41,902 nucleotides of DNA from a virus. Below, piece by piece: positions 5,223 through 41,902 of the stretch. How positions within the stretch are numbered: the first letter of the stretch is position 1; the number at the start of each line of letters is the position of its first letter. The stretch covers positions 1 to 41,902 of IMG/VR virus record IMGVR_UViG_3300035698_001168; one strand, 5' to 3'. The notes under the pieces are model-generated. The model was not told the DNA's origin. It saw only the letters and a program-made list of their open reading frames with translations, and made no database searches. The translations under genes were made by a program, and so were the position numbers.

Positions 5223-6052
5223 TACAATACTTTCCTTTCGAATTTATTTATTACATCGTCACTTGCAAACTCATCAGATGTATAGTGAAAGATACCGACT
5301 TGATTAAAATTTCCTATGCGTAACGTTAAGTCATCTGATAGATATGCCCCGACTTGTTGCATCCACCGGGACGGCGGATCAATCCACCCTTGTACATGCG
5401 GTTTCATATGTACAAATTTAGGAACTAGAACGCTAGTGTTAGTAATTTTGTCTTCTATGCCCAGGCATATTGCGGCAACTGCGGCTGTGATATCCATGGT
5501 TGGGTGCTTTGGCTGCTTAAGTGGAACAAATCTACCGTAAAATAATTCCCAGTTATTGCTAATTAGTTCTACCATCTTATAAAACTCATGAGCAAATTCA
5601 GACTTCTTAAAATAATGCATGCCGCCGTAAATATTTGGTAGATTATTTGCGGCGAAAGTCTTTCTATAATAAGTAGAGGTTACCTGTTCGTCTCTATAAG
5701 TATACGAATTCGACAAATAGTACACATCGTAATTTGCAAATTGCTTCCATACATGTGATAAATCTTGCATCACAAGTACATCTGCGTCAAATACAATTGT
5801 TTCTTCATAAGGAGAAACATGATACATCTTCCATCGATTCTCTGTTCGAAAGCGGGACTCTGATTTTTCAAACCAAGGTATGCGTTTTACTTTGTCAAAC
5901 AACGGTCTCCATTTCTTAGGTACTCGATTATGTGTAATTATAGAAATTGGTTCGTTATTGCCTGCTGCCTTTAAACTCATAGCAAGTAATGCTGCCTGTT
6001 TAACGTAGTTTTGTCCTTGAGCAAATACTAAGTATCCTTTATAACTGTTCAT
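5222..6052 (-). CDS. Putative glycosyltransferase, GT-A/GT8-like
   Basis: 276 aa. The N-terminus reads KGYLVFAQGQNYVKQAALLA, then a Rossmann-like stretch PISIIT. Residues 87-93 are VFDADVL, with D89-A90-D91 as a DxD motif of the kind that binds metal and nucleotide-sugar in GT-A transferases, and a later GGMHYFKKS segment fits the GT8-like fold. It is paralogous to the 277-aa protein just upstream (both have YVKQAxxLA near the start and a DxD in the middle). It overlaps that gene by 14 bp. Likely substrates would be phage DNA, virion protein or host envelope glycans; none can be chosen from the sequence. Confidence 0.72.
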   Translation of the reverse strand: MNSYKGYLVFAQGQNYVKQAALLAMSLKAAGNNEPISIITHNRVPKKWRPLFDKVKRIPWFEKSESRFRTENRWKMYHVSPYEETIVFDADVLVMQDLSHVWKQFANYDVYYLSNSYTYRDEQVTSTYYRKTFAANNLPNIYGGMHYFKKSEFAHEFYKMVELISNNWELFYGRFVPLKQPKHPTMDITAAVAAICLGIEDKITNTSVLVPKFVHMKPHVQGWIDPPSRWMQQVGAYLSDDLTLRIGNFNQVGIFHYTSDEFASDDVINKFERKVL

Positions 6053-6872
6053 CTATGCACCTGTTTAAGCTAAACTTATTCATTACGTGTAAATTAGATC
6101 CTTTAAATTTAACTCCGGTATATTCTCCAAGATAATTTTCTTTTTCTACTAGCACAAAGTATTCGTCCTCTTGTATTTCCCACAACAGATCTCTGTCAGT
6201 GGCGTAAAATAAAGTGCCCGGCATGCAACCTACAAAGCCTGGGGTTAGATGAATAGCAATACTAAGCAACCAATCATTACGAAATGTTGATCCCGGTAGT
6301 TGATATAGCGGTTTAAAATGATGCCAGTTTTTTTGTATGTGTTTTAGTAAGTCAAAAAATACTTCAACTTGCGCATCCTTACGAAAGTATACGCAAGTGG
6401 CCCAATAAAAATCCGGCCCAGTGTCGCTTATTTTTTTAAACTCACTATAATCGCGCCACCCTGCTAAGTCTACTGCATCTTTATACGCTAACATAGGTTG
6501 TGTTGAGTCAAAACAATTTAAAAACTTCGAGTCTCCTATTACCATATCCGAATCTAGCAGCAAAGTTTCGTCATACGGAGTTATGTCATGCGCACTAGTC
6601 CTGCTATTATTGTTAAATTCTAATTTCTCTTGCGTAAGTGAGCCGTCATAATAGCGCTTGTGTGTAAACTCAGCATTATCTTTTATTTTAATAATGTGTT
6701 CAAATACTTCGTTGCAGTCAGGATATTGTGATTGTAAAAACGCCACTGAATTAGTAGCTATAGCAGTGCCTATGCCTAAGTATTGCTTTACTCGCTTGGC
6801 TAGGAAATATGCTTGTTTAACATAGTCTATCTTGCTGTTATTGCATGCAAAAACTAGTACTCCTTTGCTCAT
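6039..6872 (-). CDS. Putative glycosyltransferase, GT-A/GT8-like (paralogue)
   Basis: 277 aa. Starts MSKGVLVFACNNSKIDYVKQAYFLA, with LLLDSDMVI carrying D107-S108-D109 as the DxD motif. Related to the following 276-aa protein over its length, though divergent. The ATG overlaps the stop of the 115-aa gene by four bases (ATGA), and its 3' end overlaps the next gene by 14 bp. Two adjacent divergent copies suggest sequential transfer of two sugars, or a heterodimer, but this is inference. Confidence 0.7.
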   Translation of the reverse strand: MSKGVLVFACNNSKIDYVKQAYFLAKRVKQYLGIGTAIATNSVAFLQSQYPDCNEVFEHIIKIKDNAEFTHKRYYDGSLTQEKLEFNNNSRTSAHDITPYDETLLLDSDMVIGDSKFLNCFDSTQPMLAYKDAVDLAGWRDYSEFKKISDTGPDFYWATCVYFRKDAQVEVFFDLLKHIQKNWHHFKPLYQLPGSTFRNDWLLSIAIHLTPGFVGCMPGTLFYATDRDLLWEIQEDEYFVLVEKENYLGEYTGVKFKGSNLHVMNKFSLNRCIDEQL

Positions 6873-7216
6873 AAGTCAAGCAGTCCTTCAATTTTTCTAT
6901 TCTTTTTAAGCTTTTCGTATTCGACATAAAATTCATTTGATGCTTCTGCGTATACACCGCTTAAGTCGACATGAAATTCAACAAGGTCTTTAATTAAAAT
7001 AGGAGTGCCGTTGTCGTCGATCAACACTGCAAACTCTCGGCCAGAGCGGATGGTACCATCAATAAATGTTATTAATTCTTTCGTGGCTTTGAATTGAGCG
7101 CCGTGTGCATAATGGATCAGGCCTTCTTCGTACCGCTCTCGCAGTAAACGTTTTTGCGTGTTAACAGTTGTCATGTAATTCGAAAAGTCGAGAACTTTTT
7201 GTAGTCGTTCGTCCAT
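6869..7216 (-). CDS. Small conserved phage protein of unknown function
   Basis: 115 aa. The N-terminal half (LDFSNYMTTVNTQKRLLRER) is probably helical. The end (NEFYVEYEKLKKNRKIEGLLDL) is a charged helix. The pattern SNYMTT, KELITFI, LIDDNGTPI and EYEKLKKNR matches, from memory, a short hypothetical protein widespread in T4-like marine phages. The start is well supported: TAGGAA lies at 7223-7228, six bases before the ATG, and a perfect TATAAATA late-promoter motif lies 30 bases upstream. It is the first gene of the accessory cassette that continues with the transferases and radical SAM genes. Function unknown. Confidence 0.85.
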   Translation of the reverse strand: MDERLQKVLDFSNYMTTVNTQKRLLRERYEEGLIHYAHGAQFKATKELITFIDGTIRSGREFAVLIDDNGTPILIKDLVEFHVDLSGVYAEASNEFYVEYEKLKKNRKIEGLLDL

Positions 7217-7246
7217 GATGGGTTCCTATAAATTAAGTGTGTACTT

Positions 7247-7254
7247 TATTTATA
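7247..7254 (-). promoter_or_regulatory. Late promoter motif TATAAATA
   Basis: An exact TATAAATA on the minus strand, the consensus -10-like box read by T4 gp55-type late sigma factors. It overlaps the stop codon of the 305-aa gene and lies 30 bases before the ATG of the 115-aa gene, leaving room for a short leader and a ribosome binding site. It would make the accessory cassette a late transcript. Confidence 0.65.
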
Positions 7255-8167
7255 GGTTAGAGGTAGTTGTGAAGGATGGGTCTGGTATAGTTACGCCGGT
7301 GCCAGACGCGCGGAATGTTTGTATTGTGCTAGTAACGGTTCCATTAATATTTTCGTCTACTGACGGGCCTGGTTCTACACCGCCTTGCTGATCGCCGGTA
7401 TCGTCGTCATTTAATTCTACTAAAAATCTAATAACGCTAGTCGAGTCAGCTCTTGCTTGAATAGTATAATCATTTTCGGCGTACACGCCAGATCCTACTT
7501 TTGTGTAAATTTGTTGATAGCTTCCAGTTAAGTCGTAATTACCATTATTACTGCCGGAGCCGGAGCCGGTTGCATTTGTTTCAGTATAATTAAAACTAAT
7601 TACTCCTGCCTCAGATAACATAGAGGACCAATTAGCTGTTTTAGCTCCAGAGCCTCCTGCAATTCCAGCCGAGAATCTTATCTCGCCGTGTGTATTAAAA
7701 AAGTAACGACGCGCATCGGCATCAGCAAACGTGACAGTAAATTCATGTGTAATAGTTCCGTTCCAGGTAGTTGACCGCACGCTGGTTACAATCGTAGCTA
7801 ACGTAGCCTGACTAGGATCCATAACAAACTTATTAGTTACTATCCCGGTAGTAGCTACGTCGTAGTCAACATAACCTTTAATTGTACCAGCTGGGTTAGT
7901 GCTGTTATTGTCATCGGCAATTATGTCACCGGTTGTCAAGTCTGATATGCTTGATATACCAGCACCGTTTTGGTGTAAGAAACAATCGCTGATATCAGAA
8001 TACAACTCTTGCATATCCAATGCAGTAACCAAACTAGTTGCGGCCACTGTGCTACTTGCAACTACTTGACCGTACCCGTCTGTGCCGGATCCAGTGCCGT
8101 AAATGTTTGCAACTCGTGTTTGTATGTTGTTATAACGCACTGCTGTGATTATATCGCCTATTGCCAT
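7250..8167 (-). CDS. Tail-fibre-like virion protein (paralogue 2)
   Basis: 305 aa. The N-terminus has GTGSGTDGYGQ and YSDISDCFLHQNG, then a central ADARRYFFNTHGEIRFSA motif, then glycine/serine-rich beta segments and NYDLTGSYQQIYTK. This pattern is familiar from fibre-like structural proteins in marine T4-like phages. It is a tandem paralogue of the 295-aa protein at 8181-9068, the two matching along their full length. It is the last gene of the fibre block. An AAGG motif near 8183-8186 precedes the start. Likely a virion appendage or decoration protein; host receptor binding is inferred from position only. Confidence 0.78.
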   Translation of the reverse strand: MAIGDIITAVRYNNIQTRVANIYGTGSGTDGYGQVVASSTVAATSLVTALDMQELYSDISDCFLHQNGAGISSISDLTTGDIIADDNNSTNPAGTIKGYVDYDVATTGIVTNKFVMDPSQATLATIVTSVRSTTWNGTITHEFTVTFADADARRYFFNTHGEIRFSAGIAGGSGAKTANWSSMLSEAGVISFNYTETNATGSGSGSNNGNYDLTGSYQQIYTKVGSGVYAENDYTIQARADSTSVIRFLVELNDDDTGDQQGGVEPGPSVDENINGTVTSTIQTFRASGTGVTIPDPSFTTTSNL

Positions 8168-40427: not shown

Positions 40428-40452
40428 TAATATTCTCCGTGTACGTATTTAG

Positions 40453-40481
40453 TTGACAAAAACCGGTATCTGTAGTATAAT
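40453..40481 (+). promoter_or_regulatory. Consensus sigma70 promoter for the gp55-like gene
   Basis: TTGACA at 40453-40458, a 17-bp spacer, and TATAAT at 40476-40481: both boxes are perfect. It faces the plus strand and lies 21 bases before the gp55-like ATG. It is expected to be read by unmodified host RNA polymerase, that is, early after infection. The minus-strand side has only ACTAAATA (two mismatches to the late box) at 40453-40446. Confidence 0.85.
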
Positions 40482-40491
40482 GGAATGAAAT

Positions 40492-40497
40492 AAGGAG
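40492..40497 (+). promoter_or_regulatory. Strong ribosome binding site of the gp55-like gene
   Basis: AAGGAG five bases before the ATG at 40503; it decides the start. Confidence 0.85.
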
Positions 40498-40502
40498 TCC
40501 AT

Positions 40503-41902
40503 ATGCGGCCAAAAAAATATCTAAATAATAAAGACTTATTAGCAGAAATCCACAAGTCTAAGAACACGTTTAGCAGCTTTGTTGAGGCTAGCAATGCCAA
40601 TTTTGACATTATATTGTTAGATGTAAATCTAATTAATATTCGTACTACTGCCGAAGCAAAACGTAACAAAGCAAAACGATTAGGTGATGCTGCCTACAAA
40701 GCAGCAAAGATCTTGGATACTAAAGTAAAGCAAGCGCAGTTTGAAATAGACTATCGTACTATAACTAAAGAGGAAATAATCTTTCGTGTAATGACGTTTG
40801 ACCATATTCCAGACGAACCGGGGCGCAAAAAGAATCCAAAAACAATAGCTGACACTAAAGTAAAGCTAAACTTTCCTCCGTTTCAACACTTTAAGTTTAA
40901 CGACAACGGCGAGCTTATATTAGTTGGAAAAAGTCATTGGGCTGGGGATGTTAAAAGCGGAAAGTTTGACAAGGACAAAGGGCAAGCAACCAACGAGCTT
41001 GCTAAGATGTGGATGAAACTGTGTGATCGATACGGCACACGCGGCAACGTTCGCGGTTATTGTGTTGATATAAACACCGAAGCACTAACCGATCGTGGTT
41101 GGATGAGTATAAACGAAATTAGCGAAAATGATCAAATTTTATCATATACTGACGGCAATTTGAAATGGTCAAAAATTAAATCAATATACCGAGGTGACTA
41201 TAACGGGTTAATGCACAAAATGACTCTTCGAGGGTTTGACTCACTAGTAACGCCGGAGCACAAGTTTGTTACAGAACGGGGACTAGTTAAGGCCGAGCAC
41301 CTTAAAGAAACTGACAAATTGGTATTACTAGGTAATGCAGTAGTTGACATTAACCCTGCTGTATATACAGATGAATTTGTTGAATTAATTGGATGGATTG
41401 TAACCGACGGATGTTATCAAAAAGGCAGAAACAACAAATTTGGATGCATTAGTGTCTATCAAAATAAAGGAATTTATGCTGATCGTATAAGAGACTGTTT
41501 AACAAAATTAAATTATAAATTTTCTGAAAATAAAGAAAAAAATTTATGCTTTAGAATTTCTGCAGAATCTAGTAGAAATGTTGAATCTATCTTTAAAGAA
41601 AAAAACCTTAATATGAAATTTATAATGTCATTGACATCAACTCAGCGGCAATTATTAATTGAGACAATGATCGACGGTGACGGATGGAGGACTAATGGGT
41701 ATAAAAGATATTGTCAAAAAGATCCCACTCACGTAAACCTATTCCAGGCAGTGTGTGCTATTTCTGGCATACGAAGTAATTCTCATCTAGTAAATGGTGT
41801 ATCATTTGGGAAGCCTGTTACCTACTATAACATAAACTTGTTTACCGAGAAGAAAAATACAACTAAAGTAGAATGTGTAAATTTTCACGGTGGGAAGAAT
41901 AA
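40503..41902 (+). CDS. 55: Late sigma factor gp55-like, interrupted by an intein (3' part missing)
   Basis: 466 codons without stop to the window edge. Residues 1-186 are the N-extein. LNNKDLLAEI near residue 7 aligns with NNKELLQAI of T4 gp55. FRVMTFDHIPDEPGRKKNPKT, LNFPPFQHFKF and TNELAKMWMKLCDRYGTRGNVRGY match, from memory, cyanophage gp55 proteins, in which RGY is followed by T, Y and further conserved residues. Here C187 follows instead, opening an intein. T4 gp55 is the sigma subunit that directs host RNA polymerase to TATAAATA late promoters with gp33 and the gp45 clamp. The C-extein, expected to begin with Thr and to hold most DNA-contacting residues, lies beyond the window. The N-extein is about 100 residues longer than in T4. 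Confidence 0.8.
   Translation, partial: MRPKKYLNNKDLLAEIHKSKNTFSSFVEASNANFDIILLDVNLINIRTTAEAKRNKAKRLGDAAYKAAKILDTKVKQAQFEIDYRTITKEEIIFRVMTFDHIPDEPGRKKNPKTIADTKVKLNFPPFQHFKFNDNGELILVGKSHWAGDVKSGKFDKDKGQATNELAKMWMKLCDRYGTRGNVRGYCVDINTEALTDRGWMSINEISENDQILSYTDGNLKWSKIKSIYRGDYNGLMHKMTLRGFDSLVTPEHKFVTERGLVKAEHLKETDKLVLLGNAVVDINPAVYTDEFVELIGWIVTDGCYQKGRNNKFGCISVYQNKGIYADRIRDCLTKLNYKFSENKEKNLCFRISAESSRNVESIFKEKNLNMKFIMSLTSTQRQLLIETMIDGDGWRTNGYKRYCQKDPTHVNLFQAVCAISGIRSNSHLVNGVSFGKPVTYYNINLFTEKKNTTKVECVNFHGGKN
41061..41902 (+). other. Intein with LAGLIDADG homing endonuclease (partial)
   Basis: Starts at C187 of the host protein. Splicing block A: CVDINTEALTDRGW. Block B: VTPEHKF with T250 and H253. 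First LAGLIDADG helix (block C): ELIGWIVTDG, D302. Second (block E): LIETMIDGDGW, about 385-395. The window stops in KVECVNFHGG, which looks like the start of block F, so only the final splicing residues (normally HN before the C-extein) are missing. By hand count G+C in 41461-41580 is 26 of 120, against 59 of 120 in 40981-41100 around the insertion point, so the endonuclease part has a different composition. Confidence 0.9.

Follow-up and report, generated by a model that had tools for sequence, protein, structure and literature searches.

A putative LAGLIDADG intein in the gp55-like late sigma factor of a phage related to jumbo T4-like phages

A known counterpart of the protein considered here is gp55 of phage T4 (PDB 7d7c, 7d7d). 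In the cryo-EM analysis of T4 late transcription, gp55 binds the polymerase clamp helices through E70, D74 and E77 of its helix H3, and its residues L54 and R57 line pockets for promoter bases (PMC7892883). Phage-borne inteins are known from mycobacteriophages and Gordonia phages, where LAGLIDADG-type elements reside in TerL, portal protein, RDF, thymidylate synthase and DNA methylase, none of which is a sigma factor. These inteins belong to the same family as the one described below and align with it over the full length at 21–28% identity. For the mycobacteriophage RDF intein it was shown that the native penultimate Gly allows complete splicing and that its replacement with His slows the reaction (PMC5050341).

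The DNA analysed in this study (the window) is an entire virus record of 41,902 bases, at the end of which an open frame on the + strand extends from an ATG at 40503 to the contig end (466 amino acids). For residues 1–186 of this frame, a search of PHROG returned 'sigma factor for late transcription' (phrog_12791, E 2.3e-40); phrog_234 was matched as well. When a profile built from complete intein-less relatives was compared with all solved structures, T4 gp55 (7d7c) was the one convincing match (E 1.9e-7), which agrees with the assignment of the host gene in an earlier note that was made from the DNA letters alone. T4 gp55 is homologous to the C-terminal portion of the protein, with sigma region 2, and has GYT at the equivalent place, but it contains no intein and lacks an N-terminal extension of about 120 residues that is present in gp55 of the window type. 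Homology was taken from the sequence profiles; a structure predicted for the intein-less gp55 of L032 from an alignment of ten sequences had a pLDDT of 52 and was set aside. The window stops before the genes that follow gp55; in the closest relative, contig L002, their order is gp55, endonuclease and SbcD/gp47, and in Synechococcus phage B23 it is gp55, gp47 and gp46.

The baseplate gene of the phage encodes a protein with 34–37% identity to those of the jumbo T4-like Pseudomonas phages Paride and PA5oct and of Sinorhizobium phage Phosso, which places the phage near this group. Two further regions of the window deserve mention. Between 15195 and 30002 on the − strand, one frame, 4,935 codons long, lies amid tail and baseplate genes and may encode a very large virion protein. 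At the contig edge (2–7216, − strand), two radical SAM proteins (Pfam PF04055) and another partial frame are clustered with glycosyltransferase-like or unassigned frames, adjoining tail genes.

Table 1. Positions of the gp55 precursor gene, its putative expression signals and intein motifs in the window, and of related loci elsewhere
Feature	Position	Strand	Remarks
Putative sigma-70 promoter, TTGACA, 17 nt, TATAAT	40453..40481	+	12/12 consensus matches
CTAAATA, putative T4-late-promoter-like box	40446..40452	-	upstream of divergent virion operon (gene start 40427)
Ribosome-binding site AAGGAG	40492..40497	+	from sequence; 5 nt before ATG
gp55-like late sigma factor, N-extein	40503..41060	+	186 aa, ends ...TRGNVRGY; phrog_12791, E 2.3e-40
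Intein, first 280 of ~329 residues	41061..41900	+	aligned to complete inteins; 96% identical to L002 at the protein level
Block A, C1-VDINTEALTDRG, N-terminal nucleophile Cys	41061..41099	+	C1 invariant, 70/70
Block B, T64-P-E-H67 (class 1 TxxH)	41250..41261	+	invariant, 70/70
LAGLIDADG motif 1 (block C), ELIGWIVTDG	41382..41411	+	catalytic-position acid D116; E/D in 67/70
LAGLIDADG motif 2 (block E), TMIDGDGW	41664..41687	+	catalytic-position acid D207; D in 66/70
Mini-inteins at the gp55 site, without endonuclease	L292, L336, L350, L356, L337, L364		147-167 aa
Phage B23 b23_0289, gp55 with intein	L082:3842-5356 = MN695335 174984-176498

The frame passes without interruption from the gp55 part into intein block A directly after RGY, as noticed earlier, and the first intein codon is TGT (C1) at exactly 41061. 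Of the blocks previously placed in the window, A, B, C and E are indeed there (Table 1). The start of block F is not: this block (VWCPETEYG) begins near intein residue 306, and the window ends at residue 280; the contig stops inside the intein and thus lacks block F, block G and the C-extein. C1, T64 and H67 do not vary in any of 70 full-length inteins, and the position of D116 is occupied by Glu in most relatives. At the other end, which lies outside the window and was read from L002 and relatives, a C-terminal Asn precedes a nucleophilic extein residue (LTGN, then T or S) in L002 and in nearly all relatives. The anticipated Thr was found at position +1 in 65 of 73 cases (Ser in the other 8), though preceded in nearly all relatives by GN rather than by the HN that had been expected; the penultimate residue is Gly in 66 of 70 inteins and Ser in three, so the penultimate His is missing here. 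Penultimate His is common in class 1 inteins, not obligatory. The mycobacteriophage RDF intein resembles the gp55 inteins in having Gly at this position (PMC5050341).

By these motifs the insertion is classified as a class 1 intein with a predicted LAGLIDADG endonuclease. An AlphaFold model of the L002 intein (mean pLDDT 93.7) found its best PDB matches in the inteins TliVMA (E 1.2e-15), PI-PfuI and PI-SceI, followed by the LAGLIDADG enzyme I-DmoI, and the whole-chain matches to TliVMA and PI-PfuI point to a HINT fold. These three inteins have the combination of HINT and LAGLIDADG domains in common with the model, whereas they are of archaeal or yeast origin, reside in other host proteins at other target sites, and are just 10–19% identical. 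Assignment to class 3 was set aside: C1 is present and there is no Trp at B12 of the WCT triplet, which we take to consist of Trp B12, Cys F4 and Thr G5. The residue at position 69 of block B is Phe, Leu, Met or Ile, not Trp; C308 in block F and T327 in block G are present. Neither Pfam nor NCBIfam offered a close model for the gp55 intein, and the weak NCBIfam matches were to other intein-bearing families. A PHROG match to thymidylate synthase (phrog_85) merely reflects an intein common to that phage family.

Thirty contigs match across the extein–intein junction with E-values from 0 to about 1e-100, which excludes a chance match. The closest, L002, is a 72-kb IMG/VR contig that holds the complete intein and the remainder of gp55 in a single frame. 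Over the shared part its intein is identical to that of the window at 96% of protein and 98% of DNA positions, and the 10 codon replacements among 280 affect none of C1, T64, H67 and D207. The rest of gp55 that the earlier note expected beyond 41902 is found in L002, whose intein, as distinct from the window's own DNA, reads through LTGN and TYNDEMKGQAILQL into a complete gp55 C-terminus with no stop codon. The window's last bases were searched for a sister contig that completes its gene, and the contig of L002 was the sole match; splicing competence of the window intein itself is extrapolated from L002. In L002 the end of gp55 is overlapped by a free-standing homing endonuclease gene (5838–7583; phrog_3339, E 1.2e-109) preceding gp47, and two kinds of homing enzyme thus adjoin each other in this phage.

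The insertion point aligns between Y63 and T64 of T4 gp55, seven residues before E70. Since it falls between the residues lining the promoter pockets and the polymerase contacts of H3, the intein divides the sigma region 2 homology domain. The Glu equivalent to E70 (E of YNDEM) is kept in relatives, and the equivalents of T4 D74 and E77 are not acidic in the alignment; this comparison concerns the relatives only, the matching part lying past the window end. Given the short distance to polymerase contact E70, the unspliced precursor is probably inactive, a strong inference that makes the earlier claim of a split core-binding part and an inactive unspliced form very probable. Empty gp55 alleles contain exactly the joined extein sequence RGY-TYNDEM (RGYT in place of RGY/T).

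Many gp55 homologues turned out to carry the insertion at the identical site, for which a search had been suggested. All 80 of the best 80 intein relatives in IMG/VR reside in gp55 at the identical codon, and none of the 80 loci read contains a stop. A full scan for the occupied junction NWRGYCVD returned 93 contigs, most with inteins of 311–346 residues; this count covers that junction, other junctions such as NVRGYC of the window being left out. Overall, at least 90 IMG/VR contigs and the cultured Synechococcus phage B23 have an intein at this site. Two scans that accepted both occupied and empty states yielded 0 occupied sites among 120 and 1 among 117 gp55 genes listed, from which we estimate that about 1% of the sites are occupied and about 99% empty among the gp55 genes listed. 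Intein-less relatives exist at 73–83% identity. In six junction contigs, four of them distinct, the inteins are 147–167 amino acids long and have lost the endonuclease, while C1, TPxH, WC and GN followed by T or S are kept; such mini-inteins could possibly serve as small natural cis-splicing tools.

Some neighbouring cases were noted alongside. In L030 (5627–6577) a second, unrelated intein of 317 amino acids is located elsewhere in gp55 (TTAIRN/CLGGD...HSSN/CFTRVLN, slashes marking the splice junctions); it sits in the promoter-reading part of the protein, so that two inteins are found within one late sigma factor, and no relatives of it were detected in IMG/VR. Locus L488 (1718–2680), a gp55 with an intein of this gp55 family, is located on a 4.2-kb contig of a Prevotella MAG (DMYZ01000238) and is more likely to represent a phage contig binned with that MAG than a chromosomal gene. 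Paracidovorax citrulli DSM 17060 and a proteobacterial MAG each have a phage-like gene with a related intein (26–29% identity) that has the canonical HN end (L489:6001–6999 and L490:47–1045).

The cultured example is b23_0289 of phage B23 (QGT54902, MN695335), which contains an intein of the gp55-intein family at the identical gp55 site. It shows about 40% identity, has the junctions FANY/CVD...LTGN/SYKED, and differs from the gene of the window type by an N-extein of just 70 amino acids, Ser at position +1 and a diverged second LAGLIDADG motif (MVNADG). Public phage records include 530 that match the B23 precursor, with the whole precursor present in B23 alone. The record text reads 'hypothetical protein; phage T4-like gp55' and leaves the intein unmentioned; the annotation could be corrected to gp55 with an intein. 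Intein elements of this kind are known already. As for their location, the literature covered, to which most subscription journals did not belong, yielded no report of b23_0289 as an intein and none of an intein in gp55 or another late sigma factor.

The inteins and their host genes have different histories. Between the window and L002, intein DNA is 98% and N-extein DNA 64% identical, and the change falls precisely on the junction. L293 and L344 share 99.4% in the intein versus 65% in the N-extein and 75% in the C-extein, and L285 and L372 share 95% in the intein versus 64% in the extein. The reverse holds for L282 and L287, whose N-exteins are 92% identical in DNA (98% in protein) and whose inteins are 60% identical in DNA (59% in protein); their sequences indicate that one intein was replaced by another at an occupied site. 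Across 2,016 pairs, intein and N-extein identity are weakly correlated (Spearman 0.27), and well-supported parts of the intein and extein trees contradict each other. Two groups of the intein tree are rejected by the extein data, L215+L335+L352 (AU p 1e-46) and L287+L285+L372 (AU p 3e-4); for L282+L287, examined on the intein tree, the AU test gave no significant result (p 0.11). All AU-tested groups were picked after the trees were seen. In a few relatives the acidic endonuclease residues have disappeared, and dN/dS of the intein is 0.09–0.36 in close pairs. Transfer confined to the insert, swapped inteins, conflicting trees and the use of one codon in 80 of 80 relatives are together the signature of a homing element with a single target site, and the coexistence of full, mini and empty alleles argues that it is turning over at gp55.

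Upstream of gp55, a perfect sigma-70 promoter suggests that the gene would be transcribed by unmodified host polymerase, ahead of the late genes (Table 1). As a check for late promoters of the TATAAATA type in the genome, NATAAATA boxes were counted on the coding strand of the virion genes: five of nine, a set of nine sites only, are located 15–55 nt upstream of gene starts, compared with 23 of 189 for all letter permutations of NATAAATA combined. The layout of promoter and boxes would agree with early synthesis of gp55 and with gp55-dependent late promoters. The same arrangement is what lends some appeal to the gate raised in the earlier note, taken here to mean that the intein was adopted as a conditional one, with oxidation (e.g., a C1–C308 disulfide), temperature or metals slowing splicing and thereby delaying functional gp55 and late transcription: precursor could accumulate before the late phase, and unspliced gp55 should bind polymerase poorly. 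Moreover, the invariant-type Cys C308 of block F could in principle pair with C1, mini-inteins persist in spite of having no endonuclease, and in the class 3 intein DnaBi1 a redox-sensitive catalytic Cys at that block F position forms a disulfide that blocks splicing (PMC6195587). We nevertheless regard such a gate as unlikely. About 99% of the gp55 genes among those listed do without the intein, including relatives at 73–83% identity; near-identical gp55 genes swap unrelated inteins, which fits poorly with a tuned switch; the element moves among phages like a homing element; and a penultimate Gly would permit fast splicing, as in the mycobacteriophage RDF intein (PMC5050341). The related proposal that gp55 inteins, perhaps the mini-inteins alone, act as a post-translational timer of the late switch, with early precursor synthesis followed by slow or redox-dependent splicing (C1–C308), appears similarly doubtful.

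Still less can be said for a dead intein or a broken window copy, with gp55 being a pseudogene or replaced by another sigma factor. The window copy is cut off at the contig end, Ser replaces Gly before the terminal Asn in three relatives, and an acidic endonuclease residue is missing from a few; yet zero stops in the 80 loci read, invariant splicing residues, low dN/dS and the sparing of C1, T64, H67 and D207 by the 10 replacements in 280 codons that separate the window from L002 make this reading very improbable. The frame is open throughout, as would also be expected if the insertion stayed in gp55 as an extra permanent domain. That, however, is scarcely credible, as all splicing residues are kept even in mini-inteins devoid of an endonuclease, empty alleles correspond to exactly joined RGY-TYNDEM, and the insertion interrupts the domain homologous to sigma region 2 immediately ahead of the polymerase-binding helix.

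We therefore consider it very likely that gene 55 of this jumbo T4-like phage harbors a full-size class 1 LAGLIDADG intein that splices rapidly and constitutively and is selfish in nature. The sequences document its anatomy, the integrity of its splicing and endonuclease residues, repeated horizontal transfer at exactly the gp55 site, and alleles that are full, mini or empty; we infer from them that the intein splices, that empty sites are cut by its endonuclease and that late transcription is not limited by the rate of splicing. Gene 55 would be translated as a single precursor in which C1 attacks the Tyr–Cys bond; the chain would then pass to the +1 Thr, and the terminal Asn would cyclize. 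The joined exteins would constitute an ordinary gp55, able to bind the RNA polymerase of the host and to read late promoters. If a co-infecting phage has a gp55 gene with no intein, the freed intein might cut that gene at the conserved site, and recombination would copy it into the cut gene. Because it occupies an essential, conserved stretch of codons whose imprecise loss would be lethal, the intein may persist as a selfish element. With splicing expected to be both fast and constitutive, the phage most likely pays little for such a passenger.

These findings add a sigma factor to the known host proteins of inteins, and with gp55 it is the very one by which late transcription is defined in T4-like phages. 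Given that full, mini and empty alleles occur together and that mismatches between intein and host gene are found in both directions, gene 55 is a good natural system for the homing cycle in phages. It also renders testable the debated question of whether an intein in an essential regulator alters the timing of its action or is a mere passenger.
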